Positions 5,146 to 51,177 of a DNA stretch of 51,177 nucleotides are shown here, piece after piece. The DNA lies in IMG/VR virus record IMGVR_UViG_3300045282_000148, positions 1 to 51,177 of that record; one strand, given 5' to 3'. Under the pieces are notes generated by a model. It was given only the letters and a program-made list of their open reading frames with translations, was not told the origin of the DNA and did not search any database. Position numbers and translations under genes: made by a program. Source of the DNA: a virus. Within the stretch, counting starts at the first letter, position 1; the number at the start of each line of letters is the position of its first letter.

Positions 5146-6171
5146 TCACCAACTCTTGCTAAGGCCGCCGTCGGCCCCGTCACCGAGACATGACGACCAT
5201 GTACATCGTAGCGCGTCTTGGACATATGGAAACTCAAGCTGCAGGTCGTAGAACGTTGTCGCGCCGTTCGGGTTGATGGCGATTTTGAGTCCCATGATCT
5301 CGATTGCTGCGCGGCCAGCCGCGTCACCGCCTCCGCCACGATCCACGACTCCACAGATTCTCGGCGTCCACGAACTGTTCGCGTCTTGATCCGCTTGCGA
5401 GCGTCCCTTGAGATTCATTTCGCAATCGTAGAGCCTGACCGGGCCGCTGCGAGCAATCACACCGAAGCAGCCGCCGTTGGTTTGGTTGCTCGTCTCACCG
5501 CGAGAGTTCGACAACGAGGCGTCACCAAAGATTCGGCACCTCCGCAGCGTCACGTCTTGTCCGTTGCCGCTGTTCTCGGCAGCTACGCCTACTCGACCAG
5601 TTGTGATGTCGCAGTCTTCGAGAGTCAGTACATTGCCCTCAGACCAGCAATAGCACGTCCAATCGCGGCACCACAAATTGCAACGCCTAATGGTTGCGTT
5701 GAAAGGTCCAGGTGGTAGTCCGAAAGCTCCGTTGTCGAATCCGACGCAACGGCCGTCTTCGGCGAAATACCAGCAGTCGTTCTTGAGCGTCAAATCCTCA
5801 ACGACCGTGTTCTGCAACGCGAAGCTGCACCCGAGCGTGTCCGAGATAATCGAACTCGTCAGGATCGTTTTCTCGCGTCCCATGCCGCGAATCGTTACGT
5901 GATCCGGTAGGATGACGTGGCCGGCTGCATTAGGCCCGAAGTCGAACGTACCTAACCCGATCTTGAGCAGAGCACCCGGCGACACTCGCGGAAGTACGTA
6001 CTGCTGCACCATGTTGCCGAGTGATGCCGCTTTGCGATCGGTCGAATAGAAGCTGAGCGGCTGTTTCGCGCCCGGATTGTAAAGCAGCACGTCGCACGGC
6101 TGGCCGTATGGACCGATGATCGGCGGCGTGGGCGATGGATTGTACGGCGGGGGTTGTGGTCCGATGCTCAT
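5146..6171 (-). CDS. Right-handed beta-helix tail protein
   Basis: The 341-aa protein has a Pro-rich N-terminus (about residues 5-25), then repeated short beta-turn units such as VTIRGMG, VVEDLTLKND, ATIRRCNLW, LTLEDCDITTG and VTLRRCRIF. These are typical of the parallel beta-helix of pectate-lyase-like tailspikes. It is probably a receptor-binding or polysaccharide-degrading spike. Several Cys residues recur at equivalent coil positions. It follows the larger LamG/beta-helix protein with only an 11-base gap. Confidence 0.7.
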   Translation of the reverse strand: MSIGPQPPPYNPSPTPPIIGPYGQPCDVLLYNPGAKQPLSFYSTDRKAASLGNMVQQYVLPRVSPGALLKIGLGTFDFGPNAAGHVILPDHVTIRGMGREKTILTSSIISDTLGCSFALQNTVVEDLTLKNDCWYFAEDGRCVGFDNGAFGLPPGPFNATIRRCNLWCRDWTCYCWSEGNVLTLEDCDITTGRVGVAAENSGNGQDVTLRRCRIFGDASLSNSRGETSNQTNGGCFGVIARSGPVRLYDCEMNLKGRSQADQDANSSWTPRICGVVDRGGGGDAAGRAAIEIMGLKIAINPNGATTFYDLQLEFPYVQDALRCTWSSCLGDGADGGLSKSW

Positions 6172-19673: not shown

Positions 19674-20168
19674 ATGCCAGTACGACCTTTAACCACAACC
19701 GAGATTGAAGCGATACGGCGCGGCAAGCGTCTATCGAGCCTAGAGCGTCGGGCCCTAGCGACAATCGACAACCTACAAGCGCAACTGGCCGCTGCGAAAT
19801 ACGCCCCTGGAAGTGGGAATGGTGAAACGGCGTTTGCGGGACGCGAAAAGGTGCTGGCTGTGGTCGCGTGGGACGGATTCATAGAGGTGTACGCAGAGCC
19901 GTGGTGCGACGTGAAGGTGGTCGAATGTTGGCCGTGGGACGACGAGGACGAACTACGGCTGCCGGCTTGCTACGAGGGGTTGTACTACCCCGGAAAGCTA
20001 CGAGCGACGGCTCTGGCAAGGCTCAGACAGACTCCAAGGCTTCCTGAAATAGTGATGGCCTTCAGAGAACACGACGCGCGCATGGAAATGATCGAGCTAG
20101 TCAGAGAGAAGATCGCGGCTCTAACGAATGGAACCGATGAACCTGAGCAGCGAACCAACGGCGAGTGA
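19674..20168 (+). CDS. Hypothetical early protein
   Basis: The 164-aa protein has a basic helical N-terminus (TTEIEAIRRGKRLSSLERRA) and a Trp-rich acidic middle region (VECWPWDDEDELRLP), with ATALARLRQTPRLPEIV and a helical end. No family is recognised. It follows the structured gap 19451-19673. Confidence 0.55.
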   Translation: MPVRPLTTTEIEAIRRGKRLSSLERRALATIDNLQAQLAAAKYAPGSGNGETAFAGREKVLAVVAWDGFIEVYAEPWCDVKVVECWPWDDEDELRLPACYEGLYYPGKLRATALARLRQTPRLPEIVMAFREHDARMEMIELVREKIAALTNGTDEPEQRTNGE

Positions 20169-20192
20169 CCCCCGACTGACCACAGGTACCCC

Positions 20193-20399
20193 ATGAGCCG
20201 CACAGCCGCAACCGACCCTACTGACCTATGGGGAGCAGCCAGATTGGCCACCGATGAAATCCTTGAGGATTTGCTGGCTTGGCCGGATATAAGCGACGCT
20301 TGGGCGCGGATGGGAAATGGAGAGCGACATGCTGCGAGAAACAGCATCATGGCCCTAGTTTGGGAGCGATTGGACGACCTATGCAAAAGCATTCAGTGA
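20193..20399 (+). CDS. Hypothetical small acidic protein
   Basis: The 68-aa protein shows no recognised domain (WGAARLATDEILEDLLAWPD). It begins ATGAGCCGCACAGC, nearly the same bases as the start of the gene at 20615, which hints at a local duplication of the start region. Confidence 0.5.
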   Translation: MSRTAATDPTDLWGAARLATDEILEDLLAWPDISDAWARMGNGERHAARNSIMALVWERLDDLCKSIQ

Positions 20400-20407
20400 G
20401 CCGCGTC

Positions 20408-20611
20408 ATGTCAAGTAAATACCAAGTCGGAAAGCCCAGTGACTTATCGTCGAGCGACCCGTGGTTTTACGATGAGCGCGACGCTATCGAGGCAGCGGCA
20501 AAGCTGCATCGTGAATCGAGTCCATTCGGTTTTGAGCCAATCGGAATTTGGGACGAGCGGAGCGAATGGATTTGGCTTTTCTTCGATGGCGAGCAATTCA
20601 AGAGAGTCTAA
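20408..20611 (+). CDS. Hypothetical small protein
   Basis: The 67-aa protein is aromatic-rich (DPWFYDERDAIEAAAK; WDERSEWIWLFFDG) with no known domain. The start is uncertain: the ATG at 20408 is used here, but the GTG at 20396 overlaps the previous stop and is also in frame. Confidence 0.5.
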   Translation: MSSKYQVGKPSDLSSSDPWFYDERDAIEAAAKLHRESSPFGFEPIGIWDERSEWIWLFFDGEQFKRV

Positions 20612-20614
20612 GTC

Positions 20615-20815
20615 ATGAGCCGCACAGACATCGCTGAACTGGACTGGAACGACGCGCGAATCGACCATGCACTCGTAATGATAGAGGAAGCCTGCGGCGT
20701 GCTCGTGGACATTATGGATCACGGCACCGGCGAAATGTTTGACGAGGCTAGCGCCGCTTGCGAAGCGCTCGACAAGCTGATTGCGAGACTAAAGAAGCTG
20801 AGGAAACGGATATGA
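20615..20815 (+). CDS. Hypothetical small acidic helical protein
   Basis: The 66-aa protein is mostly helical, acidic in the first two-thirds and basic at the end (LDKLIARLKKLRKRI). No family is recognised. Its stop overlaps the start of the HNH-like gene at 20812. Confidence 0.5.
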   Translation: MSRTDIAELDWNDARIDHALVMIEEACGVLVDIMDHGTGEMFDEASAACEALDKLIARLKKLRKRI

Positions 20816-21285
20816 GCACAACCGCCGAACTGTTTGATTCTCACGGCTTGACCGTGGTTGCCGCAATGGTAGCCCTGCCGCCGCAGCCGAGCAGGTGGCC
20901 GCGCGTCGAGCGAATCAGCCTATCGGGCCTCAAAAGCTGGCGGTTCTTCGACGCCTGGCATGAGAAGCACAAGCAATGCTGGCTCTGCGGTGCGACCGAA
21001 TCGCACGAGGTCCGGATCGACGCCCATCACGCCGCGCGCAGTGACGAGCTAGCGTGTCTGTTCCCTCTGTGCTTCCAGTGGACGACTAACGGCGGATGCC
21101 ACATGAACGTCGAAGGCCGCTTGGCGGAGCTGATTTGGTGTCAGGCTGTGTTTGTGCCAGAGGAAGCGGATTGGACGCGGCTGGCGACTCTGAGAATTCC
21201 ACGACGGAAGCTGCCGGAGCCGAAACCGCCTTCGTGGATCGACCCGGCGCAAATTGCGATGATGAATGAGTTGTTTCACCCCTAA
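20812..21285 (+). CDS. HNH-like zinc-finger protein
   Basis: The 157-aa protein has a middle region with Cys/His pairs typical of an HNH or NinG-like treble-clef fold: CWLCGATE (residues ~59-66), IDAHHAARSDE, LFPLC and GGCHMNVEG. The paired Cys and double His resemble recombination-associated HNH nucleases, though it could be non-catalytic. It lies in the replication/recombination region with an ATGA overlap upstream. Confidence 0.6.
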   Translation: MSTTAELFDSHGLTVVAAMVALPPQPSRWPRVERISLSGLKSWRFFDAWHEKHKQCWLCGATESHEVRIDAHHAARSDELACLFPLCFQWTTNGGCHMNVEGRLAELIWCQAVFVPEEADWTRLATLRIPRRKLPEPKPPSWIDPAQIAMMNELFHP

Positions 21286-21672: not shown

Positions 21673-22311
21673 ATGAACTGGATTACTGACTCTCGCGGAA
21701 ATCGTGCCTCTGTCGAACGATGGGGCACGGAGGAAAAGGCAAAGGCGTCTCTTGAGACGTTGGATACCCGCTGCTACGGCTGCTCCGACTGCTCCGGCTG
21801 CTCCGGCTGCTCCGACTGCTCCGGCTGCTCCCGCTGCTACGGCTGCTACGGCTGCTACGGCTGCTCCGGCTGCTCCGACTGCTCCGGCTGCTCCGACTGC
21901 TCCGGCTGCTCCGACTGCTCCGGCTGCTACGGCTGCTCCCGCTGCTCCGGCTGCTACGGCTGCTACAGCTGCTCCGGCTGCTCCGGCTGCTACGACAAGA
22001 AAGAACAAAAGGACGCGCCGTTCTCTGTCCCCGTTATCGAGGACATCCATAAGAAAGTCTTAGAAGCGGCTTCCGTACCAGCGGCGCTCGATATGAGTTC
22101 GTTTCATGTCTGTGAGACAACGCATTGCCGCGCCGGCTGGGTCGTTCACTTGGCCGGTGAACCAGGCTACGCCTTGGAAAAGCAAACGTCGCCAATCTTC
22201 GCTGCCATGCAAATCTACAAGGCGAGCGGGTACGAAATCTCGCCAGTGAGGTTCTTCGATTCCAACGAAGCGGCGCTTGAGGACATGAGATCACTGGCAC
22301 TTGCGAAGTGA
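21673..22311 (+). CDS. Cys-triplet repeat protein with C-terminal HCRAGW domain
   Basis: The 212-aa product opens with a short domain (residues 1-33, NWITDSRGNRASVERWGTEE). Residues 34-108 are 25 perfect C-x-x triplets, mostly CSG, CSD and CYG, so 25 cysteines in 75 residues. The C-terminal domain (~120-212) contains FHVCETTHCRAGWVVHLAGE and RFFDSNEEA-like residues, a domain known from phages where it is usually paired with other repeats. The Cys array could bind metals or form a beta-solenoid; the function is unknown. The DNA is a 9-bp tandem repeat. Confidence 0.8.
   Translation: MNWITDSRGNRASVERWGTEEKAKASLETLDTRCYGCSDCSGCSGCSDCSGCSRCYGCYGCYGCSGCSDCSGCSDCSGCSDCSGCYGCSRCSGCYGCYSCSGCSGCYDKKEQKDAPFSVPVIEDIHKKVLEAASVPAALDMSSFHVCETTHCRAGWVVHLAGEPGYALEKQTSPIFAAMQIYKASGYEISPVRFFDSNEAALEDMRSLALAK
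21772..21996 (+). repeat. Imperfect 9-bp in-frame tandem repeat
   Basis: About 225 bp are built from TGCTCCGGC, TGCTCCGAC and TGCTACGGC units, coding the C-x-x triplets of the gene at 21673. All changes keep the TGC codon and the frame, so Cys spacing is under selection or recently expanded by slippage. Confidence 0.95.
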
Positions 22312-27142: not shown

Positions 27143-27508
27143 ATGACCTTACTGCAAATCTTGCAACTGCTTCTAGGTAACATCGGAAAAGCTCCGGTCA
27201 TCCTGACATTCATCCAGGCCCTAGTCGCGGCGTTCAACGCCTTACTGGCCGGCCTCGGGCAGACTCCGCCGGTCGCTGTTGCTCACGCGGACGGCTCGCC
27301 GGAAGCCAAAGCAATCGAACAACTGGCCGCCGCCTTGCAATCGCACGGCGCATCAGAAGCCAAAAAGTTCGGAGATGGAACGATCCTCAAGACACTGTTC
27401 GGCGCTTTGCAAGGGTTGATGAATCTGCCGGGAATCGGCGGCCTGCTTACGCAAATTCTGACCGGCTGGCTGGGCGGTCTGTTGAATCCTACGGCCCCGA
27501 CGCCCTAA
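27143..27508 (+). CDS. Hydrophobic amphipathic protein upstream of sedolisin
   Basis: The 121-aa protein has hydrophobic helical stretches at residues ~1-40 (LLQILQLLLGNIG; PVILTFIQALVAAFNALLAG) and 84-112 (LFGALQGLMNLPGIGGLLTQI). It could be membrane-active. CAGGAG precedes the ATG. Position next to the protease and spanin-like genes suggests a lysis role, unproven. Confidence 0.5.
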   Translation: MTLLQILQLLLGNIGKAPVILTFIQALVAAFNALLAGLGQTPPVAVAHADGSPEAKAIEQLAAALQSHGASEAKKFGDGTILKTLFGALQGLMNLPGIGGLLTQILTGWLGGLLNPTAPTP

Positions 27509-27522
27509 CCCTGGAGGTTGCG

Positions 27523-27711
27523 GTGAGCGAAGGATTCACGAGCAATACGGTTACGGACTTCACCACGCCATTAGAAATCTGGCAGTGGTGCTACAAGCAG
27601 GTTCCGACCGAAGCTGGCGGGAACTTGGAGCGGACAGTCCAGCACAGAATCGCGGACGCAGAGGTTTTATTCGATCACGTCGCTGGTAAATTCCTTTCCG
27701 AAACGAAGTGA
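27523..27711 (+). CDS. Hypothetical small protein
   Basis: The 62-aa protein has a GTG start with GGAGG upstream and shows no recognised domain (FTTPLEIWQWCYKQVP). It is placed between the hydrophobic protein and the sedolisin protease. Confidence 0.5.
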   Translation: MSEGFTSNTVTDFTTPLEIWQWCYKQVPTEAGGNLERTVQHRIADAEVLFDHVAGKFLSETK

Positions 27712-27714
27712 ATC

Positions 27715-29397
27715 ATGCCACTCGACAAGACGCAGACGATTACCGTCTCGCTCTTTTTGCGGCCGATGACGCCCGTCGCGCCGCCGGTCGCTGGGGCGCC
27801 ACCAATGGACCCGGCTACGTTCGCCGCTCAGCATTCGGCTGACCCAGCGGACATCGACGCCATTCGTGCGTTTGCGAATGACAAAGGTCTGCAAGTCGTT
27901 GGCGTTCACCCGATCCAGAGAATCGTGAACGTCTCTGGGACGATCGAACAGCTCGAAGCTGCTTTCGGGGCCGATACAGAGCAGCGGCCGACCGCGAATG
28001 GCGAACACCGCTTTTTGGCTAGAGCAGCGCAGCCGATGCCGCACTTGGGCATCGTCAAGACGTTGGGATGGGAGTCGGCGCCGTTTGCGCAGCCGCACTT
28101 TCGCAGACGACGAAAGCACCCCACCGCAGCAGCCGTAGCCGTCGAACCGCACGCCATGAAGCCGCTTGGGCCGGTCAAGACGGCTCAAATGTACGGCGTC
28201 ACAACTCGGCCGGCGGGAACCTACCGGACCTGCCACGGCTCGATCCTCTGTCTTGGCGGCGGCTATACGTCTTCGGACGTAGCCGCAAGCTGCCAACTCA
28301 ACGGTATCCCGGTTCCGACAATCATTGATGAATCGGTCCTAGGGGCCGGCAATGCCCCTGGAAACGACGCCGACGTGGAGTTGATGCTGGATATCGTTCA
28401 GATGGCCGGGGCTTACTTCGCTCGCACTGGGCAGCATATGACGATCCACGTCATTTTCTGTCCGAACACCGATGCAGGTTACGTCACCGGGAGCGGCTAC
28501 GGAGCGCATATTACGAACGTGGCGACGGAATCAAGCTCATGGGGCAGTTCCGAGGATAATTGGGCACAATCGGCTGGCCAGTTTGATTCGACGGCCAAAG
28601 GCTCAGTTACGCTCGGCGTCACGTATGTCGCAGCCTCGGGCGACGGTGGGGCGACAGACGGCACCGGTGGCCTGATTGTCGACTTCCCGGCGGCATCGCC
28701 CTACGTTCTCGGCATGGGCGGTACGAACCTATCGGACGCTGGCGAAGTAGTCTGGAACGATCCGCAAGGCGGTTCCGGCGGCGGCGGTATCTCTGGCGTC
28801 GAGACTCCGAAGCCGCCTTGGCAAAGCGACTACCCGACGGCTGGTGGTCGGTGTGTGCCTGATCTGGCGGCGAACTCAGCCCCGGCTACTTGTGGGACAA
28901 TCGTCGTACAAGGTCAACACATGGACATCGGCGGAACAAGCGCCGCCGCTCCGTTTATGGCTGGTATCCTATGTGCCCTGTGCGAGGAACTGCCGCACAA
29001 CATCGGGTATCTCAATCCTCTTTTGGAGACAATGCCGGCGACGTGCTTTGAGGACATTATCAAGGGCGATAATGGAGGTTTTAGCGCGAAGCCCGGTCCG
29101 GATATGTGTACCGGCCGCGGCAGCCCGAAACCGCTGGCGATGCTCGCGGCCTTGAAAGGCACGGCACCGCCTCCCGTCATTCCACCGCCGGTAACTCCTC
29201 CGCCCGTGACGCCCCCGCCCCCGATTACACCGCCGCCGACCGACATGACGGTCGCGCAGTTCCAAGCCAATCTCCGCGCGAGTGCCCGCCGAAAATTCAC
29301 AGCGGACCTCAAAACCGAGAGCCATTTAGAGCGCTGGTCGAATGCCTATTACGCGCTGTTTACAGACAACCTAATCGCGTCCGAGCCGATCGCATGA
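27715..29397 (+). CDS. Sedolisin-family serine-carboxyl peptidase (MEROPS S53)
   Basis: The 560-aa protein begins with a pro-kumamolisin-like activation domain (residues ~5-125; TITVSLFLRPM; VSGTIEQLEAAFG). The catalytic domain keeps the family's set: E222 and D226 (VELMLD), D253 (PNTDAGY) and S409 in GGTSAAAP. TGRGSP near the end matches the calcium-site region. A Pro-rich linker (about 480-505, PPVTPPP) joins a ~50-aa C-terminal helical domain. S53 peptidases are acid endopeptidases, usually secreted; no signal peptide is visible here. It sits beside spanin-like genes and could degrade host envelope protein. Confidence 0.9.
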   Translation: MPLDKTQTITVSLFLRPMTPVAPPVAGAPPMDPATFAAQHSADPADIDAIRAFANDKGLQVVGVHPIQRIVNVSGTIEQLEAAFGADTEQRPTANGEHRFLARAAQPMPHLGIVKTLGWESAPFAQPHFRRRRKHPTAAAVAVEPHAMKPLGPVKTAQMYGVTTRPAGTYRTCHGSILCLGGGYTSSDVAASCQLNGIPVPTIIDESVLGAGNAPGNDADVELMLDIVQMAGAYFARTGQHMTIHVIFCPNTDAGYVTGSGYGAHITNVATESSSWGSSEDNWAQSAGQFDSTAKGSVTLGVTYVAASGDGGATDGTGGLIVDFPAASPYVLGMGGTNLSDAGEVVWNDPQGGSGGGGISGVETPKPPWQSDYPTAGGRCVPDLAANSAPATCGTIVVQGQHMDIGGTSAAAPFMAGILCALCEELPHNIGYLNPLLETMPATCFEDIIKGDNGGFSAKPGPDMCTGRGSPKPLAMLAALKGTAPPPVIPPPVTPPPVTPPPPITPPPTDMTVAQFQANLRASARRKFTADLKTESHLERWSNAYYALFTDNLIASEPIA

Positions 29398-29564
29398 CGG
29401 ACTTAGAGCGGTGCCGTGAAGAAAAGACGCGGTATGCACGCTATTACGAAGACGCAATCCGCGAGTACACGGCGATTACGGAGAAAATGCTGGATCGGAT
29501 CAAATGGCTTGAAATGGAAGTTCTACGGCTGCTAAGGATCATCGAACAAGCAGAGAGAAGGTGA
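29394..29564 (+). CDS. Coiled-coil small protein
   Basis: The 56-aa protein is strongly helical and charged (EEKTRYARYYEDAIREY; ITEKMLDRIKWLEMEV). It overlaps the sedolisin stop by 4 bases, so it is probably translated with it. Function unknown. Confidence 0.6.
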   Translation: MTDLERCREEKTRYARYYEDAIREYTAITEKMLDRIKWLEMEVLRLLRIIEQAERR

Positions 29565-29568
29565 CTCA

Positions 29569-29907
29569 ATGAATCCTGAAGGCGTTATTACTCTTTGTGC
29601 CCTGAGTGCGGTGATTTCCGGCGTTGTCGTGTATCTATTCCGGCCGGATTCGAGCAGCGAACTCAAGTCGGCACAGGAAAGAGGCAACGCATTAGAAAGC
29701 CGCTGCATCGACCTGGAAAAGCAGCGGGACGACCTAATGGCCGAAACGACTGCTCAGCATGACTTGATCTCGCAGGTCAAAGAGGCCGCGTCGAAAGATC
29801 AAGCGGCGGCGAGTGAGGCTCAAGAGCGAGTGACGGCGCTGCTGGCTAAACACGAGCCGAAGAAACGCAGCCATCACCTCAGCAAGAAGGATGGAGGCGT
29901 CGACTGA
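29569..29907 (+). CDS. Spanin-like protein: N-terminal anchor plus coiled coil
   Basis: In the 112-aa protein, residues ~5-24 form a hydrophobic anchor (GVITLCALSAVISGVVVYLF). Residues 30-90 are coiled coil, and the tail is basic (KKRSHHLSKKDG). This is the layout of an inner-membrane spanin (Rz), the lysis protein connecting the two membranes. The sedolisin, tiny membrane proteins and this gene may form one lysis cassette. Confidence 0.5.
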   Translation: MNPEGVITLCALSAVISGVVVYLFRPDSSSELKSAQERGNALESRCIDLEKQRDDLMAETTAQHDLISQVKEAASKDQAAASEAQERVTALLAKHEPKKRSHHLSKKDGGVD

Positions 29908-30017
29908 TGCTGGACAGAGACATTTTAATCGGCTGGGCAATCATTATTGGGCTGTGGCCGGCGGCAATGGGGTTTGTTCTGGCTGTTGCGTGGCTGGTGA
30001 GTGAGGTGATGCGATGA
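29907..30017 (+). CDS. 36-aa single-span membrane peptide
   Basis: The protein is mostly one hydrophobic helix (ILIGWAIIIGLWPAAMGF, then VLAVAWLV). The ATG overlaps the previous stop (TGATG). Holin-like or regulatory; too short to classify. Confidence 0.5.
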   Translation: MLDRDILIGWAIIIGLWPAAMGFVLAVAWLVSEVMR

Positions 30018-30124
30018 GGCTGCCATATTCGCCGGTCGGAGTCCTATCGTCTCTCGTGCTGTTTGGGGCAATCGTAGCGGGGCTTGTGTGGGCGGCTAAC
30101 GTGACTTTGCCGAGCGTGCCTTAA
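30014..30124 (+). CDS. 36-aa single-span membrane peptide
   Basis: The second tiny membrane protein in tandem reads GVLSSLVLFGAIVAGLVWA after a short N-terminus. It starts inside the stop of the preceding gene (ATGA). The two may form a holin/antiholin-type pair, an inference from size and position only. Confidence 0.5.
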   Translation: MRLPYSPVGVLSSLVLFGAIVAGLVWAANVTLPSVP

Positions 30125-30137
30125 TCGAGGAGCGAAC

Positions 30138-30473
30138 ATGTCTGAATCCGTTCAAGAACAACTCACGGCAATCTTCGCAGCCGACGAATCCGCTCGGCCG
30201 CTGATCAGAAACCTCCGGCTGATCTCGGAACACCTATCCGTGGTCGGCAACGTCACAATTACCGGCAAGACCGCCGACGGCCGCGAGGTGATTATCGGGC
30301 CAGAGCTGTACAACCTGCGCCCGATGATCCAAGCCAAGATTGAAAGCGCCGCCGAGCCGCGAATGGCGAAGCTGCGGGCGTTGTACGTTCCACCAGCACC
30401 GGCTGCTCCTAAGGTCGCCGATACGCCGGACGACCGAGACGAGATTATCGAGATGGTGAAGAAACAAGCGTAG
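30138..30473 (+). CDS. Hypothetical protein
   Basis: The 111-aa protein has an N-terminal helical region, a central beta part (VGNVTITGKTADGREVIIGPE) and a C-terminal Pro-rich and acidic tail. No signal peptide or domain is recognised. GAGGAG precedes the ATG. It precedes the secreted haem-c operon. Confidence 0.5.
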   Translation: MSESVQEQLTAIFAADESARPLIRNLRLISEHLSVVGNVTITGKTADGREVIIGPELYNLRPMIQAKIESAAEPRMAKLRALYVPPAPAAPKVADTPDDRDEIIEMVKKQA

Positions 30474-30477
30474 CCCC

Positions 30478-32196
30478 ATGAAACCGCTGTACTGCCTATG
30501 GCTGGGAGCGGCCGCGTCAATGACCGTTTGCCTTGCCTACGAGCCGATCCCGCAGAATCCAAGAGTGGAGAGGATCGCGGTACGTCATACCAATTCTGTG
30601 AAAGTTAGTAGCAAATTAGTAGATACCCCGGCGGTACTCACGCCCGCCGAGCGTTCCACGGCGCGGAAAGGCCACGTACGACGGGCCGGCGACATCGACC
30701 AGTGCCCCGCGCTCGTGGCCAAAACACCCGTCGCCCGGCAGGCACTTGCCGCATTACTAAAGCCCGTTGAAGCCGAGTTGCCACGGGCGACGGGTTTATC
30801 ACGGCTGGGCGGCTGGTTAGGAGCCGCTGTGGCCGACTTGATCCCGCCGTTCGACGAACAGCCGATAGCCGTCGAGATCGAGCAGCCGCGTAGCCCGGCA
30901 ATGGAACTGGCCGACGCCGCCCAAGACGCAGCACGGCTTCCGCCTGACGCTGCGATTCACGCCCGGTACTTATCGCTCTACAACGTGCCTCGAGCACAGC
31001 GGGGCAACGCCGCTCGCGTGGTGAGCTATACGCTCAACGCCCTGAGCCGTAGCCGGTCGATCTATCTGCCGGTGCGAGTCTCTTCTAGCCTGCTGAGAAT
31101 CGACACTAGGTGGTTTGCCGAAGACGAGGCCGTTCACGAATGGGAACACGCTTGGTTCGGTCTGACGCAGAAAGACCCGTACTGGCACGTTCCGACGCTG
31201 ATCTATTTCGAGGGCAAGACGCAGCACGCGACGGTAGACGGTGGCTGGCTGAATCAATCGCACGTTGCGGCGTTGCGGAATTACACCGGCTCGGTGGGAG
31301 CTATTCTGCGAGCGGATTACTTCGTAGCCAATGCGACGATACCGCCGGCCTACTATGAATTCATTGGTCTGCCCGCGACTGAGGGTGAATTTCTGAAAGG
31401 ATTGGGCGTAGATGAAAAAGCCATCGAACGATTGCGGGCTGACGCGGGTGCCAATCTTGATAATAGTGGCATTACCGACAAGACGCGGCGAGTCGTCTGG
31501 AAGCAAGGTTTACTTGGTGGAATTTATAACACGCTCGATGTGGAGAAGGTCGATGCGGAACATGATCCGGCCCGGCGGATTGTTTCGGTCGGTAAGTTCG
31601 CCCTTCAGCATGAAGCGGAAGAGTGGTTTGCTATGGCGCCAAATGGATTTTGGTGGACAGCACTCTTCGACAAAAACGGCAAGAGGCAAGATGCTGTGCC
31701 GGTCAAGGTCGCCACGGATTCTATTGCAACCGACCAGCATGCGCCGGACAAGGAGGTCGTGCCGATGCAGTCGTGCTACCGCTGCCACGTCGAGAGCGGG
31801 CTACGGACGCTGAGCGACGACCAATCAAAAACCTTCGCCGGAGGGAGTATCAATCTCAAGAGCTATGACTACGCCACGATCCAGCGGGCACGTGATTTCT
31901 ACAACGAGCCGAGATTACTTCGTCAAATGGCCTTTGATCGTCAGACGCACGACGCAGCGGTTTATTCGGCAACTGGTGGCTGGACCTGCGCCAGAGCCGT
32001 ACAGGGTTTTAGTGACGCGGTGAGAATGTACGCCTACGATCTCGTAACGCCGGAAATGGCCCGACGGGAACTTGGCGGGCCGATTTCGCCAGCCTGTACC
32101 GACGTGCGGAACTTGCAACTATTGAAGGGTACGCCAGTCTTGAGAGGCTTGTTCGAACAGTCATTCGCAGAGGCAAGTACGTTAGGTGCCAAATGA
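30478..32196 (+). CDS. Secreted protein with haem-c motif CYRCH
   Basis: The 572-aa protein starts with a signal-peptide-like hydrophobic stretch (residues 3-20, LYCLWLGAAASMTVC). Its middle region (~160-215) contains RYLSLYNVPRAQRGNAARVV and SYTLNALSRSRSI, a segment I associate with planctomycete secreted proteins. Residues 433-437 are C-Y-R-C-H, a covalent haem-c binding site. It is probably exported and matured by the host's cytochrome-c system. The HEWEH at 220-224 is noted but may be chance. It is the first gene of a three-gene exported operon. Confidence 0.7.
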   Translation: MKPLYCLWLGAAASMTVCLAYEPIPQNPRVERIAVRHTNSVKVSSKLVDTPAVLTPAERSTARKGHVRRAGDIDQCPALVAKTPVARQALAALLKPVEAELPRATGLSRLGGWLGAAVADLIPPFDEQPIAVEIEQPRSPAMELADAAQDAARLPPDAAIHARYLSLYNVPRAQRGNAARVVSYTLNALSRSRSIYLPVRVSSSLLRIDTRWFAEDEAVHEWEHAWFGLTQKDPYWHVPTLIYFEGKTQHATVDGGWLNQSHVAALRNYTGSVGAILRADYFVANATIPPAYYEFIGLPATEGEFLKGLGVDEKAIERLRADAGANLDNSGITDKTRRVVWKQGLLGGIYNTLDVEKVDAEHDPARRIVSVGKFALQHEAEEWFAMAPNGFWWTALFDKNGKRQDAVPVKVATDSIATDQHAPDKEVVPMQSCYRCHVESGLRTLSDDQSKTFAGGSINLKSYDYATIQRARDFYNEPRLLRQMAFDRQTHDAAVYSATGGWTCARAVQGFSDAVRMYAYDLVTPEMARRELGGPISPACTDVRNLQLLKGTPVLRGLFEQSFAEASTLGAK

Positions 32197-32573
32197 AACG
32201 GACAATCGCGCTCATCGCTCTACTGTGCGGCATGATCCCGGCGATTGCTCGCGGAGCCGACAAGACTTGGTTTCGCGGATTCGTCTATCACGCCGATGGC
32301 TCGCATGTCTCTAAAGAACACATCAGCGGTCGCGCCGAGATTTACGTCACGGATCGCGTAGGTCAAGTTCTTTACACGCGCGAATTCGGAGACAAGTCAC
32401 AGCCGCCCTATGGACATGAAGGCGAATTCGTCTTTGAACTTCCGGCCGGAGAACTCGCGGATGATTCACTTATCAAGATTTTCGTCACGGCGGATGGCTA
32501 TGAGAACGCGAAGGTGGCCTACCTAGCTGCAAACCAAATGCAAGTCCACATCAGTTTGGGAGAGAAGAAGTGA
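32193..32573 (+). CDS. Secreted beta-sandwich protein
   Basis: The 126-aa protein has a clear signal peptide (RTIALIALLCGMIPAIARGA) and then a beta-rich domain (FRGFVYHADGSHVSKEHISG) that resembles carboxypeptidase-regulatory or Ig-like extracellular domains. Coupled by ATGA overlaps to both haem-c genes, it may bind or support them. Confidence 0.65.
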   Translation: MKRTIALIALLCGMIPAIARGADKTWFRGFVYHADGSHVSKEHISGRAEIYVTDRVGQVLYTREFGDKSQPPYGHEGEFVFELPAGELADDSLIKIFVTADGYENAKVAYLAANQMQVHISLGEKK

Positions 32574-33205
32574 AGCGCTGCATCGCAATCGTCGCTATGG
32601 TCTGCGGCATGGTCCCCCAGCAGCTTGACGCCGGCTGCCGCGTGGCCGTGGGACAGACATTCAACACGGGCTTCGCCTATACGACGGCATTCGTTCCGGC
32701 GGGAATCGGCGTTGCGGCGGTGGCACCCTATCAGTACGCCTACAATCCGCCGCCTACTGTCAATGTGGTCGTAGACACGAACTCGATTGCGTCCGCGGTT
32801 GTCCAGCAACTAACGTCTCAAATGAACGCCGTTAATCAGCCTTCAGCACGAGCGGCGCAGCCAGCAGATAGACCACCGCCGCCCGTTCCTGGACCAGCCG
32901 CAAATCAGCCAGCACAACCAGGGCCAGCAGCTAACGGGCCGCCGCAAGCGGACGTGTTCGCAGAGACCGGAGAATTCGCCAAATGCGTCCAATGCCATTC
33001 GCCGACCGGCAAGAAGAAAAGTGCGTTCGCCAAGCTTGATTTGAGCGCCGTTACAACGCTAGCGTCACTAGCGCCCGATAAGCGGCTATTGGTCATCGAC
33101 AGAATTACAAGCGACGATCCGGCAGCGATGATGCCGCCTCCGGGAGAGCCGAGACTGTCGCCGGAAGAACTCGGAAGTTTGATCCACAGGTTAAGTCACA
33201 AATGA
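32570..33205 (+). CDS. Secreted mono-haem cytochrome c-like protein
   Basis: The 211-aa protein has a signal peptide (residues 2-20, KRCIAIVAMVCGMV), a Pro/Ala-rich linker (about 92-130), then a cytochrome-c domain. C139-V-Q-C142-H143 is the haem site, and M187 or M188 in AMMPPPG is the probable second axial ligand. Its class fits planctomycete-type mono-haem cytochromes. Phage-encoded c-type cytochromes are extremely rare. It could affect periplasmic electron flow in the infected host. Confidence 0.8.
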   Translation: MKRCIAIVAMVCGMVPQQLDAGCRVAVGQTFNTGFAYTTAFVPAGIGVAAVAPYQYAYNPPPTVNVVVDTNSIASAVVQQLTSQMNAVNQPSARAAQPADRPPPPVPGPAANQPAQPGPAANGPPQADVFAETGEFAKCVQCHSPTGKKKSAFAKLDLSAVTTLASLAPDKRLLVIDRITSDDPAAMMPPPGEPRLSPEELGSLIHRLSHK

Positions 33206-33262
33206 AACAAGCCTGCCGTTGAAGCGACAGGCTCTAACCACTGAAATCGAAAGGGGATTCCA

Positions 33263-33820
33263 ATGGCTGCCGTGATTGTAGCGGAAGGCGTCGAAGCGAG
33301 GGAGATAGAGGGATTTCCAGGTTACGCCGTATCGGCAGATGGAGTCGTATGGTCACACCGAACCCGCTATGGAGAGCCTTGTGACTCATGGAGACCTAAA
33401 AAAACGCGACCTGATAGGATCGGATATGCCTCAGTCGGCTTATACAGGAATGGAAGGGAACTCACGAGAAGGATTCATTCCCTCGTAATGAATGCGTGGA
33501 TCGGCCCTAGGCCAGATGGTCAAGAAGTGTGCCATGGGAATGGCGACAGAATGGATTGCCGGTTGTCAAATCTGCGTTATGACACTCATTTGGCAAATGA
33601 GGCAGATAAAAAACGAATGGGCAGGGGATGCGAGGGCGAGAACCATCCAATGGCAAAACTAAATGCTCAATTGGTTGCCGATTTCAGAAGGAGGATTGCG
33701 AGTGGTGAAGCGACCAGAAAGCAATTGGCCATAGAATCCGGCTTTGCATATAAAACGATATGCGGCGCCGTGGCCGGAAGGCGTTGGAAATGTGTATCTG
33801 AGGAAATGATCGGACCTTAA
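33263..33820 (+). CDS. NUMOD4/HNH homing endonuclease
   Basis: The 185-aa protein begins with a NUMOD4 motif (EIEGFPGYAVSADGVVWS), then an HNH domain: IHSLVMNAWIG, VCHGNGDRMDCRLSNLRYDT, and ANEADKK with a NUMOD-like tail (GENHPMAKL; TRKQLAIESGFAYKTI). It is a site-specific homing nuclease that sits between two genes for secreted proteins. A small hairpin (AGCCTG/CAGGCT) precedes it. Confidence 0.9.
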   Translation: MAAVIVAEGVEAREIEGFPGYAVSADGVVWSHRTRYGEPCDSWRPKKTRPDRIGYASVGLYRNGRELTRRIHSLVMNAWIGPRPDGQEVCHGNGDRMDCRLSNLRYDTHLANEADKKRMGRGCEGENHPMAKLNAQLVADFRRRIASGEATRKQLAIESGFAYKTICGAVAGRRWKCVSEEMIGP

Positions 33821-33834
33821 CTAAGGAGAATCAA

Positions 33835-34317
33835 ATGATTCGTCACTTGCTACATCGGTTGTTCCATCGTCGGTGTATTGTCGCGTTTGCGCTCGTCGCG
33901 CTCTCGGCGTCTGCACTCCAAGCCTGCCCGGTGCAGGTTGGGGCTGTGATCGCCCAGCCAGCTTTCGTGGGAGGTTATTCACAGGGCTTTCAGAGTGTCG
34001 CTACGGTTGCCACCGCTGCGCCTTGTGCGTGTGCGACTCAGCAGGCCGCTGCGGTCGTCGCGCCGCAAGCGGTCGAGTCCTATGCCGCTCCGCAAGTCGT
34101 CCAGAGCTACGCTCAGCCGCTCGTAGTGGCTCAGCCCTTGGCGGTTGCGGTGCCGTTCTACTCGTTTAGCGCGTTCGCAACCCCGTTCTACGGCTATGCG
34201 TCAAACAACGTGTTCGTCGGTAGCAGTCGTGGTCGGTTCTTCGGCGGTCGGCAGGTCTCGCGGCAGCGTGTCGCTGTGACAACCACGCGGACGAGGACCG
34301 TTATACGAGGACGTTAA
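33835..34317 (+). CDS. Secreted low-complexity protein
   Basis: The 160-aa protein has a signal peptide or N-terminal anchor (residues ~14-30, CIVAFALVALSASALQA) followed by Ala/Val/Gln-rich repeats (QAVESYAAPQVVQSYAQPL) and an Arg-rich end. Such AQ/VP-rich exported proteins are common in planctomycetes. Unknown role; it could be a surface or envelope-modifying protein. A strong terminator follows. Confidence 0.6.
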   Translation: MIRHLLHRLFHRRCIVAFALVALSASALQACPVQVGAVIAQPAFVGGYSQGFQSVATVATAAPCACATQQAAAVVAPQAVESYAAPQVVQSYAQPLVVAQPLAVAVPFYSFSAFATPFYGYASNNVFVGSSRGRFFGGRQVSRQRVAVTTTRTRTVIRGR

Positions 34318-35175: not shown

Positions 35176-35427
35176 ATGATCCTTTTTGCCTTCGAAGTGA
35201 GTATCGAGCTGGGCGCAATCGCCGTATTTGCGGTTTCAACGATTGTGATTATCGTCTGGCGGTCGGCAATCATCGTGACGAAACAAGATATTATGATCGA
35301 ATGGAGTCGGAAAATCGACTCGTGGAGGGAATCGAAAGACGAGACGATAGTTGACCACGGGCAGCGGATTCGCGCCTTAGAAGTGACAAAGTGCACGCAT
35401 GGAACCGACCGACAAACTGGCCGATAA
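35176..35427 (+). CDS. Small membrane protein
   Basis: The 83-aa protein has a hydrophobic N-terminal helix (residues ~10-33, LGAIAVFAVSTIVIIVW) and a charged helical tail. It overlaps the next gene by 29 bases in another frame. Unknown; possibly part of an envelope or lysis set. Confidence 0.55.
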   Translation: MILFAFEVSIELGAIAVFAVSTIVIIVWRSAIIVTKQDIMIEWSRKIDSWRESKDETIVDHGQRIRALEVTKCTHGTDRQTGR

Positions 35428-35716
35428 GTTCAAGGTGCCATTGAAACGGCAACTCGGCGCCCTCGGTTGGGCGATGCTACTTTCGACCGTCGCTATCGGA
35501 TTCTTTCTGTACGTCGAAGTGAGTAATCGCAGGCAATCGGACGAGATCATTCAACAGCAAGAGGACGAGACTGCGAGGCGGTTGAACCATATTGAAGATC
35601 AGCTGCAGGAAACCCGAAACGAATGGGTCGATAAGATCAACCGCAAGCATCCCGAATTAAAGCTCCCGCACTTCGATCCTCCCCCGAAAATTACGCCAGA
35701 AGAACCGTTGAAATGA
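35399..35716 (+). CDS. Membrane anchor plus coiled coil
   Basis: The 105-aa protein has a membrane span at residues ~22-42 (LGWAMLLSTVAIGFFLYV), coiled coil to ~80 (RRQSDEIIQQQEDETARRL), and a Pro-rich C-terminus. The layout resembles an inner-membrane spanin or an envelope tether. Unknown function. Confidence 0.5.
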   Translation: MEPTDKLADKFKVPLKRQLGALGWAMLLSTVAIGFFLYVEVSNRRQSDEIIQQQEDETARRLNHIEDQLQETRNEWVDKINRKHPELKLPHFDPPPKITPEEPLK

Positions 35717-35719
35717 GTA

Positions 35720-36007
35720 ATGGACCCCACCGCTACCTGGACGATGATTGGCGCGGCGGGGTTGATAGTATCCTTGGTCTTCACGGCGATTTGGAGGGCA
35801 TCGGCAGCAAACTTGAAGATCGACATCCTTCGTGAGGACGTAACGGAATTGAAACGACGGATGACTAAGAAAGAGGATGAAATCATCGAGCTATCGAAGG
35901 AGACGGCCGTATTGCAAGCGTTTGCTGAGGGTGTTCGGTCCGTCGAGCGGGAAAGAACAGAGTTAGTCAGGCGAGAGAAGTCAGACCACAACAATGACAG
36001 AAGGTAG
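35720..36007 (+). CDS. Membrane anchor plus coiled coil
   Basis: The 95-aa protein starts with a hydrophobic helix (residues ~6-28, WTMIGAAGLIVSLVFTAI) then a charged coiled coil to the end. It is a second spanin-like architecture in tandem with the preceding gene. Function unknown. Confidence 0.5.
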   Translation: MDPTATWTMIGAAGLIVSLVFTAIWRASAANLKIDILREDVTELKRRMTKKEDEIIELSKETAVLQAFAEGVRSVERERTELVRREKSDHNNDRR

Positions 36008-36018
36008 GGGCAGATGAG

Positions 36019-36579
36019 ATGTCGGAAGCAGCGAATATTCGCGGAGGGACAGCAAATGAAAGAGGCCCCGGCGCATCGCAATTAAATCCGGACCCGACTG
36101 AAAGGACTTTGGATCAATCACGGCGAGAAATCGCCATGCTGCGGGAGCTGATTGAATCCAAGCTACATGGCAACGAGGAAGTATCACGAATTGTCAAGGA
36201 ATTCAACGGGGCGGTTGTCAGCCATGTTCGCGTCGAGCTTGGCGGCCTGAAAGAGTTAGAGGAAGAAAAGTTCAAGGGGATCAATGCCCAGTTCTCTCAG
36301 CGAGACATCGCGTTGACAGCCGCGCTTCAGGCGCAAAAGGAATCGGCCGCAGCTCAGCAAGTGGCAAACTCGGAAGCGATTGCCAAGAGCGAAGGGGCCA
36401 CGACGAAACAGATGGACGGCCTGAGCGACAAGATTGACGACTTGAAAGAACGGCTGACAGCAGTGGAAGGCAGTAAGCAAGGCTCATTGGGGGCGACAAC
36501 GACCGCAATAGCGGCTATCGCGGCGGTTGGGATTATTTTGGCGGTTGCGGTGGACATCGTAATTCATTTTGTTAAGTGA
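36019..36579 (+). CDS. Phage helical protein with C-terminal membrane span
   Basis: The 186-aa protein has a conserved central block KGINAQFSQRDIALTAALQA and AIAKSEGATTKQMDGL, recognised as a phage family often placed near tail or lysis genes. Long helices precede a C-terminal membrane segment (residues ~160-183, AIAAIAAVGIILAVAVDIVI). Possible holin-like or envelope protein; its role is unproven. Confidence 0.6.
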   Translation: MSEAANIRGGTANERGPGASQLNPDPTERTLDQSRREIAMLRELIESKLHGNEEVSRIVKEFNGAVVSHVRVELGGLKELEEEKFKGINAQFSQRDIALTAALQAQKESAAAQQVANSEAIAKSEGATTKQMDGLSDKIDDLKERLTAVEGSKQGSLGATTTAIAAIAAVGIILAVAVDIVIHFVK

Positions 36580-36594
36580 AAGGCGGGTAATGCA

Positions 36595-36780
36595 ATGATC
36601 CTCTGTGTAATTTGGGTTGTGCTGATGATGTTTTGGCTGTTCGGCGGTGGTTGGTATATCGGAAGTCAACCGACTCCGAACTGGACGGGCTACGGATTCT
36701 CGACGTTGATCCCCTGGGTCTGCGTACTGATTCTTGGCTTGATTCAATTCGGGTTCTGGACTCCGGGGCCAATTCGCTGA
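36595..36780 (+). CDS. Two-span membrane protein
   Basis: The 61-aa protein has hydrophobic segments at ~2-20 (LCVIWVVLMMFWLFGGG) and ~38-55 (LIPWVCVLILGLIQFGFW). Unknown; a holin is possible. The next gene's ATG overlaps its stop (TGATG). Confidence 0.55.
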   Translation: MILCVIWVVLMMFWLFGGGWYIGSQPTPNWTGYGFSTLIPWVCVLILGLIQFGFWTPGPIR

Positions 36781-36935
36781 TGCTCGGAATCATCCTCATA
36801 GTGTTGCTGGTCCTGCTGCTGCTCGGTGCATTGCCGCAAGTCGGCTTACACGAGAGCGGCTACGGTCCCGGCGTCGGTATTGGAACGATTCTAATTATTG
36901 TGTTGATCCTGTATCTGTTGGGGGTGTTCCGTTGA
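36780..36935 (+). CDS. DUF3309-like small membrane protein
   Basis: The 51-aa sequence GIILIVLLVLLLLGALP, followed by a Gly-rich turn and GTILIIVLILYLLGVF, matches the pattern of the DUF3309 family of bacterial small membrane proteins. Such proteins are rare in phages. Function unknown. Confidence 0.65.
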   Translation: MLGIILIVLLVLLLLGALPQVGLHESGYGPGVGIGTILIIVLILYLLGVFR

Positions 36936-50350: not shown

Positions 50351-51177
50351 TGCCCTCCGAAGATAAACTCACCGAACAGATTACCATTGCCGCAGAGGGC
50401 ATTAAGCAGCTCGTCGAGCAAGGGAAGAAGACGCTTTCGGCCACCGAGCACCTGGCGCGAGGCGTATCGCCAGCGGCCGCGACGGCATTCGCACAAGCCG
50501 CATCGTCTCCGGTGGCGAGAGAATTCGCCCAAGCCGGATTGCGAAACCCAGCCGTACCTCCGGCAGTCCATGAAGGAATCAGCCAGATTCAGGTGGCGAG
50601 TAAGCCACCGGCCGCGAAGGCGTTGCGGCCAGATCAATGGCCCCAAGGAATGCCCTCATTGCCGTCGCCGGCCGTCTCGCAGACCGTCCATCAGGAAGTA
50701 GCCCAAATTCAGGCCGCAAGTCAGCCCCAGGCCAAGCGGAGCTTTCCAGAATCGTTTGAGGCCATCCAAGCGCGGATGTTGCACGCTGTAAGCATTGGGG
50801 CCGACCCTATAGCAGCCGCTAGGACTGGCGGTGGAATGCCATTGAAGCCCAGCCAATGGCCCGCTGGGATGCCTGGCTTGCCCGTAGGCTCACCGGGGAA
50901 CCCGGCACCGCCGGGGATGCCGGGCTTGCCAACGCCTGCCGTACCGTCGCCACCGTCTCCTCAACAGGCCTCCGGTGGTGGAGAGGGCGGAGGATTTTTC
51001 TCAATGCCGAGTTTCCGAGGTGTCGCAGCCGCGGCCGGACTTGGGCTTGGAGCTATACAACTCATTAAAGGTCAATTGTTTCGCGAGTTTAATGCTGGTT
51101 CAGGGATGGCCCAATGGAACAAGGAAAACGCCAATGCTCTCGATTACCAGACAAGTCCGCTACGATTGCTCACACAA
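50350..51177 (+). CDS. Tape-measure-position tail protein (N-terminal part)
   Basis: The gene starts at 50350 overlapping the chaperone stop and runs off the right end; joined to 2-388 it makes about 362 aa. The N-terminus is helical (LTEQITIAAEGIKQLVEQG). The middle has Pro/Gly-rich collagen-like repeats (GMPGLPVGSPGNPAPPGMPG) and a hydrophobic stretch (GVAAAAGLGLGAIQLI). In lambda-like order this slot encodes the tape measure; 362 aa would imply a short tail, so either the tail is short or this is another tail protein. Confidence 0.6.
   Translation, partial: MPSEDKLTEQITIAAEGIKQLVEQGKKTLSATEHLARGVSPAAATAFAQAASSPVAREFAQAGLRNPAVPPAVHEGISQIQVASKPPAAKALRPDQWPQGMPSLPSPAVSQTVHQEVAQIQAASQPQAKRSFPESFEAIQARMLHAVSIGADPIAAARTGGGMPLKPSQWPAGMPGLPVGSPGNPAPPGMPGLPTPAVPSPPSPQQASGGGEGGGFFSMPSFRGVAAAAGLGLGAIQLIKGQLFREFNAGSGMAQWNKENANALDYQTSPLRLLTQ
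51051..51177. repeat. Right copy of exact 127-bp terminal repeat
   Basis: Identical to bases 1-127. See the left copy. It lies within the tape-measure-position gene, so the repeat is not a gene-delimited element. Confidence 0.95.

Follow-up and report, generated by a model that had tools for sequence, protein, structure and literature searches.

Among the described systems that come closest to the locus studied here are the acid proteases of the S53 (sedolisin) family and the holin-endolysin-spanin cassettes of tailed phages. For S53 peptidases, acid-pH proteolysis and self-activation at low pH are described in PMC6278154, where low pH leads to removal of the linker that joins prosegment and catalytic domain; the words 'phage' and 'virus' are both absent from that paper. 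A literature search, judged by titles and with subscription papers and preprints outside its scope, found no paper on phage sedolisins. Phage exit from planctomycetes is, to our knowledge, almost unknown. For one cultured planctomycete, PMC10945688 describes a phage that is released without lysis. Here, we report on the IMG/VR virus record IMGVR_UViG_3300045282_000148, whose 51,177 nt were analysed as a whole (in the following, the window), and on a run of genes therein that includes an S53 peptidase. We favour the view that these genes form one envelope-directed operon. That the operon acts late and that its S53 peptidase assists egress, and does not replace a peptidoglycan hydrolase, is our tentative proposal, which we hold at somewhat less than an even chance.

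The run comprises 11 genes on one strand (+; 27143-33205) with spacings of -4 to +14 bp. Its first half codes, in this order, for a hydrophobic protein, a 62-aa protein, the S53 peptidase, a 56-aa protein, a spanin-like protein and two transmembrane (TM) peptides. The second half codes for a 111-aa protein, a 572-aa protein with a CxxCH motif, a 126-aa protein and a protein with a PSCyt1 domain. As reference, we use G001 (61,029 bp), the sole close relative from a single-protein IMG/VR scan. Scans of viral contigs with TerL, the capsid, the 572-aa and the hydrophobic protein gave no further relative besides G001.

Judged from its sequence, the S53 gene (27715-29397, +) encodes an intact kumamolisin-type peptidase of 560 aa with prodomain, Pro-rich linker and helical C-terminal tail. 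Its closest solved structure is pro-kumamolisin 1t1e (phmmer, E=1.6e-64), and the activation domain Pro-kuma_activ (PF09286) scores 30.1 bits given a Pfam cut-off of 23.5. For the AlphaFold model (mean predicted local distance difference test score, pLDDT, of 69.7), the top Foldseek match is again 1t1e (E=2.9e-32) and the best matches are kumamolisins. Catalytic E222, D226 and S409 as well as oxyanion D310, aligned to kumamolisin, are unvarying across 14 viral S53 rows. The respective codons are located at 28378-28392 (E222 and D226, E-x-x-x-D), 28642-28644 (D310) and 28939-28941 (nucleophile S409, within GGTSAAAP), all on the + strand; we take E78 and D82 to be the kumamolisin equivalents of E222 and D226. 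The sequence-only reading had claimed a complete S53 peptidase with intact catalytic residues, which these matches and residues bear out. No signal peptide is predicted for it. The C-terminal extension (residues about 484-560) consists of the Pro-rich linker and, after it, two helices that AlphaFold predicts with low confidence at 513-534 and 537-555; its helical sequence is kept in G001. The sole PHROG match is phrog_3677 'protease' (E=0.0019), and NCBIfam has no family for the S53 proteins of the window or G001. Membership of a known phage family was rejected, given that none of four viral S53 proteins matched any of 50,697 phage records in tblastn searches. Pattern scans of genome contigs (one with poor N-terminal patterns, one narrow) also found no relative.

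Comparing the window with G001, blastp identities are 26% for the capsid and 21% for the portal protein, while they amount to 78% for S53 (558 residues), 70% for the hydrophobic and 52% for the spanin-like protein. Since the structural genes are far diverged and these three genes are retained, the module is conserved between distant phages. Respective identities of MAFFT-aligned residues are 0.80, 0.71 and 0.61. The ratio of non-synonymous to synonymous substitution rates is about 0.15 for S53 (0.153/1.046), about 0.21 for the hydrophobic (0.251/1.171) and about 0.41 for the spanin-like protein (0.363/0.894). That is, the codon comparison places the module under purifying selection. An artefact or pseudogene as source of the S53 gene is thus rejected, given the intact active site and this selection. 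In addition, gene junctions are identical in both genomes: S53 overlaps the following small gene by 4 bp (-4), and the spanin-like gene is followed by the two TM peptides at -1 and -4. The 62-aa gene is not kept in G001, where two other small open reading frames (ORFs) occupy its place. The two phages also share a protein that looks like a beta-helical tail spike (5146-6171, -, in the window; 32307-33398 in G001), which is 69% identical between genomes with 26% identical capsids; either recent exchange or a common receptor may account for this.

The module's opening gene (27143-27508, +) codes for the 121-aa hydrophobic protein, which shows one borderline TM stretch and no Pfam or PHROG family; calling it holin-like is only a guess. 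It is followed by the soluble 62-aa protein (27523-27711, +) directly upstream of S53. Downstream, a charged helical 56-aa protein (29394-29564, +) overlaps the S53 stop by 4 bp. The 112-aa spanin-like protein (29569-29907, +) combines an N-terminal TM stretch (residues 6-24) with a coiled coil, and is only weakly matched by PHROG 89 (Rz-like spanin, i.e., i-spanin; E=0.00067). The single-TM peptides, 36 aa each, are found at 29907-30017 (1-bp overlap with the spanin-like gene) and 30014-30124 (4-bp overlap with the preceding peptide gene), both +. The hydrophobic protein, spanin-like protein and membrane peptides that the sequence-only reading had placed beside S53 are thus all present as ORFs on the + strand within 27143-30124. 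Its account ended at 30124 and therefore overlooked the two haem-type genes, because the run extends to 33205. The remaining members of the run are a soluble 111-aa protein (30138-30473, +) and a 126-aa protein with signal-like N-terminus (32193-32573, +), beside the two CxxCH proteins discussed below. Loosely associated is a small, secreted-looking 160-aa protein (33835-34317, +), whose C-terminal RTR..IRG tail has a similar counterpart in L102, one of the S53 loci introduced below. Elsewhere in the window, an ORF at 21673-22311 carries long Cys-Ser/Tyr-Gly repeat runs.

The sequence-only reading had further stated that no lysozyme, amidase or other muralytic enzyme is recognisable, and had called for a thorough homology search for a hidden endolysin. 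This search, run with Pfam, PHROGs and six-frame translations, recognised none. Pfam assigned 21 families among 86 window ORFs and 22 families among 95 of the 101 called G001 ORFs, with zero peptidoglycan hydrolases in either set; the single long G001 ORF outside this set is Phage_Mu_F. The PHROG scan of the 86 window ORFs covers the first 25 of 45 families. A rescan of the 47 poorly annotated ORFs gave 8 families, including Rz-like spanin twice and 'protease', with no endolysin and no holin among them. Six-frame searches of 51 records with ten hydrolase families (GH25, Amidase_2, GH24, M15_4, M23, SLT, CHAP, GH19, M15_3, Amidase_3) found none of these in the window, G001, G027, G053 or G059. 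No holin family was matched by the window's small TM proteins, though TM peptides are present. Small membrane proteins also cluster at 35176-36935, where one protein is tail-anchored and five others show one or two TM stretches each; this second cluster is another possible holin site. TerL, portal and capsid families were found in the window; Rfam matches and tRNAs amount to zero.

The window carries an exact 127-bp direct repeat at both ends (1-127 and 51051-51177, no strand assigned), and one ORF spans the joined ends. It is thus probably a complete, circularly assembled genome, and G001, where a terminal repeat of 127 bp is likewise present, is probably complete as well. The missing hydrolase is therefore not simply due to contig truncation, and a truncated contig concealing an endolysin is unlikely given the exact terminal repeats in both genomes. 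Since many ORFs are without any family, a new hydrolase type could hide in both genomes.

The host is probably a planctomycete bacterium, as suggested by the window's PSCyt1 domain and the N-terminal LESRLML motif of a G001 protein. We take this motif to be tied to planctomycetes. The envelope of such hosts bears on the strong form of the sequence-only reading, in which S53 is the main lytic enzyme in place of an endolysin. For this form speaks that no hydrolase is recognised in two probably complete genomes. Furthermore, hydrolase matches are found in 0/5 planctomycete-type S53 records (window, G001, G027, G053 and G059) compared to 25/46 others (p=0.028), where two of the five, the window and G001, carry end repeats and are probably complete, and no end repeat was found in G027 and G053. 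On the other hand, planctomycetes have peptidoglycan sacculi that are sensitive to lysozyme, according to PMC4432640. A protease alone should therefore not open the sacculus, such that some sacculus-cutting enzyme should exist or come from the host or the virion. Replacement is hence unlikely to be the whole story, and the many familyless ORFs that could conceal a new hydrolase type argue against it, too. It is the weakest part of the earlier idea, and we consider the strong form very improbable.

Whether S53 peptidases accompany lysis genes in other phages was assessed in further viral contigs. An S53-motif pattern matched 18 viral stretches, and from a profile-led scan the best 80 of 137 stretches were taken. 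Leaving out L115 (no S53 gene called), the resulting 79 loci form 48 clusters at 70% identity, from which 52 representatives were examined. In L034/L035/L083, S53 has a GH25 gene on one side (E=4.3e-21 in L034) and a TM protein on the other, while in L037/L081 it is followed by an Amidase_2 gene (E=1.4e-18) and then a TM protein. The six-frame searches yielded 33 hydrolase matches in 25/51 records. For 11 of these matches, S53 is no more than 2 kb away, compared to 2.75 expected (0/20000 simulations); at a limit of 5 kb, there are 16 compared to 5.48 expected. These counts include below-cut-off M23 matches (G005, G019, G023), tape-measure-sized SLT matches and a below-cut-off SLT match in G036. 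Near-S53 hydrolase genes belong to GH25, Amidase_2, M15, M23 and CHAP. Among 102 direct S53 neighbours, Pfam gave at least 6 matches to GH25, Amidase_2, M23 or M15_4; among the matches listed for 87 control proteins located eight genes from S53 are one SLT and one LysM. By analogy, this proximity to endolysin-type genes elsewhere indirectly supports a lysis-stage role of the window's S53. Next to an M23 peptidase gene, L065 shows an S53 ORF of 805 aa, which is about twice the usual length.

Several observations weigh against an egress role. Six of the ten hydrolase families (GH25, Amidase_2, M15_4, M23, CHAP, SLT) were picked after near cases had been seen, and without the previously seen cases only 1/22 hydrolase matches is within 2 kb (1.85 expected; not significant). 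This removal is necessarily severe, as it takes out almost all of the near cases. Small TM genes are weakly enriched near viral S53 genes (30/303 vs. 54/815, p=0.045), and the number of loci with such a gene near S53 is 22/52 compared to 18.3 expected (p=0.14). Lysis-unrelated genes are often inserted near lysis cassettes, such that proximity to endolysin genes is no proof of function. Within the window, a lipobox scan of 26-37.5 kb revealed no o-spanin but only nested starts of one ORF within an HNH gene. Furthermore, the window's S53 has a long branch in the tree and does not belong to the lysis-linked clades. Window and G001 are found near L113, L082/L096 and L102, a poorly supported grouping (87/90).

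The same tree bears on a virion-associated protease, i.e., S53 packed with the tail and clearing surface protein at entry or release. A clade of six rows (L090, L104, L107, L108, L110, L114; support 100/100) has S53 amid tail-fibre/collagen-like genes, and the missing signal peptide as well as the Pro-rich linker and tail of the window's S53 would fit a virion protein. But the six tail-linked rows form a clade of their own, and S53 is not beside tail genes in the window or G001, so that we regard this alternative as distinctly improbable. N-terminally extended S53 genes amid tail-fibre/collagen-like genes occur in L036 and L039 in addition to these six; perhaps the S53 proteins of all eight loci are virion proteins, and their contigs are T4-like by eye. 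Other S53 genes are located at scattered places in large phage genomes. In at least 34/52 representatives, a full prodomain would not fit, and 1/52 (L063) shows a hydrophobic N-terminal segment on S53.

The second half of the run could also point to a different kind of operon. The 211-aa protein (32570-33205, +) has a signal-like N-terminus and carries the planctomycete cytochrome c domain PSCyt1 (PF07635; CVQCH) with 26 bits given a Pfam cut-off of 22. The 572-aa protein (30478-32196, +) is exported-looking, and it is one CxxCH motif (CYRCH) that links it to c-type cytochromes; its AlphaFold model is uninformative (pLDDT 30). For such large CxxCH proteins, there is no Pfam family (window, L063, L102) and no NCBIfam family. 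CxxCH proteins were found near S53 in L063 (G027) and L102 (G053), which had been picked as planctomycete-looking. Since this choice is partly circular, all 52 loci were scanned for a large CxxCH protein (500 aa or more) together with a smaller one of 150-400 aa, both within seven genes of S53. Exactly 3/52 loci besides the window show such a pair, namely L063 (11399-13144 and 14157-15233), L102 (6251-8263 and 8284-9354) and L113 (12292-13917 and 13929-14639), where L113 was not pre-chosen. The large proteins are homologous, with small-database E-values of about 1e-8 to 1e-9 (window-L113), about 8e-8 (window-G027), 2.4e-6 (window-G053) and about 1e-34 (G027-G053), and a profile of the other three matches L113 with E=3.2e-10. 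The small proteins share a weaker common C-terminal haem domain (PSCyt1 below cut-off in G027, E=0.0053). G001 is without the pair and encodes a di-haem peroxidase-type protein of CCP_MauG type (E=5.4e-39) 11 genes from S53 (L022 867-1946, i.e., G001 19867-20946). As far as motifs and domains tell, the four pair-bearing phages and G001 thus appear to have S53 and exported haem-type proteins in common.

These proteins are not explained by a plain lysis cassette, and together with the lack of a nearby o-spanin they count against the strong form of the earlier reading. They would fit a non-lytic remodelling or exoenzyme operon, by which the protease and exported haem c-type proteins are placed into the envelope while the cell is alive, with superinfection exclusion, redox protection or nutrient gain as tasks that the membrane peptides would serve as well. 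The two CxxCH proteins within the same gene run, the recurrence of S53 with the pair in four divergent phages and the di-haem peroxidase of G001 are in line with this view. However, other phages carry S53 inside lysis cassettes, and, having no signal peptide, the window's S53 would not get out of the cytoplasm as long as the cell lives. We therefore rate a non-lytic operon as rather unlikely, though as the likeliest of the alternatives.

The assisting role in egress, our tentative choice, is suggested by the kept spanin-like and TM neighbours, by a prodomain without signal peptide and by the lysis cassettes elsewhere. The operon-like spacing of the run, the CxxCH pairs beside S53 in the window, L063, L102 and L113, and the hydrophobic N-terminal segment on the S53 of L063 speak for it as well. 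S53 would be synthesised as a zymogen that is inactive in the cytoplasm, and one or more of the adjacent small membrane proteins may open the inner membrane. The zymogen could then leave and activate itself at low local pH, as is a property of its family, and the active enzyme would cut host envelope proteins, aiding egress together with the spanin-like protein. The exported CxxCH proteins may act in the same compartment with some redox task, while the sacculus would be handled by a hydrolase that escaped recognition, or by an enzyme of the host or the virion. The earlier proposal that an acid protease could replace or assist an endolysin is thus split: assistance agrees with the kept module, the weak spanin match and S53 genes near hydrolases elsewhere, while replacement disagrees with lysozyme-sensitive planctomycete peptidoglycan (PMC4432640) and the position of S53 outside lysis-linked clades.

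A wider claim would be an undescribed operon class in which S53, membrane peptides and exported proteins of haem c-type dismantle the planctomycete envelope by redox-aided proteolysis, either instead of cleaving peptidoglycan or in addition to it, with sedolisins as a recurrent lysis-stage component across unrelated hosts; taken as a whole, we consider this unlikely. If true, a protease-centred egress module would extend phage lysis by a new class of enzymes. In hosts that are easier to handle, the recurrent S53 genes beside endolysin and holin-like genes offer cassettes that can be tested. The exported haem proteins carried by phages pose a new question on phage use of host envelope redox chemistry.

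Compared to kumamolisin and pro-kumamolisin (MEROPS S53; PDB 1t1e, 1t1g, 1sio), the window's S53 agrees in prodomain, catalytic E..D, D and S, and fold. It differs in being phage-encoded and in its additional Pro-rich linker and helical C-terminal tail, and its acid activity is presumed by family analogy only. The PSCyt1 protein passes the Pfam cut-off as a planctomycete cytochrome c domain does, whereas the copy studied here resides in a phage genome and in the same run as a protease. With the holin-endolysin-spanin cassettes of tailed phages, the window shares small TM and spanin-like proteins in one tight run, but a protease takes the place of the muralytic enzyme, and no holin, endolysin or o-spanin is recognised. 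Finally, the cassettes of L034/L035/L083 and L037/L081, which we guess to be actinophage-like from the look of their genes, also have a catalytically intact S53 adjoining holin-like TM proteins. In contrast to the window, these cassettes retain a muralytic gene (GH25 lysozyme or Amidase_2), and their S53 proteins are without prodomain and belong to another clade.

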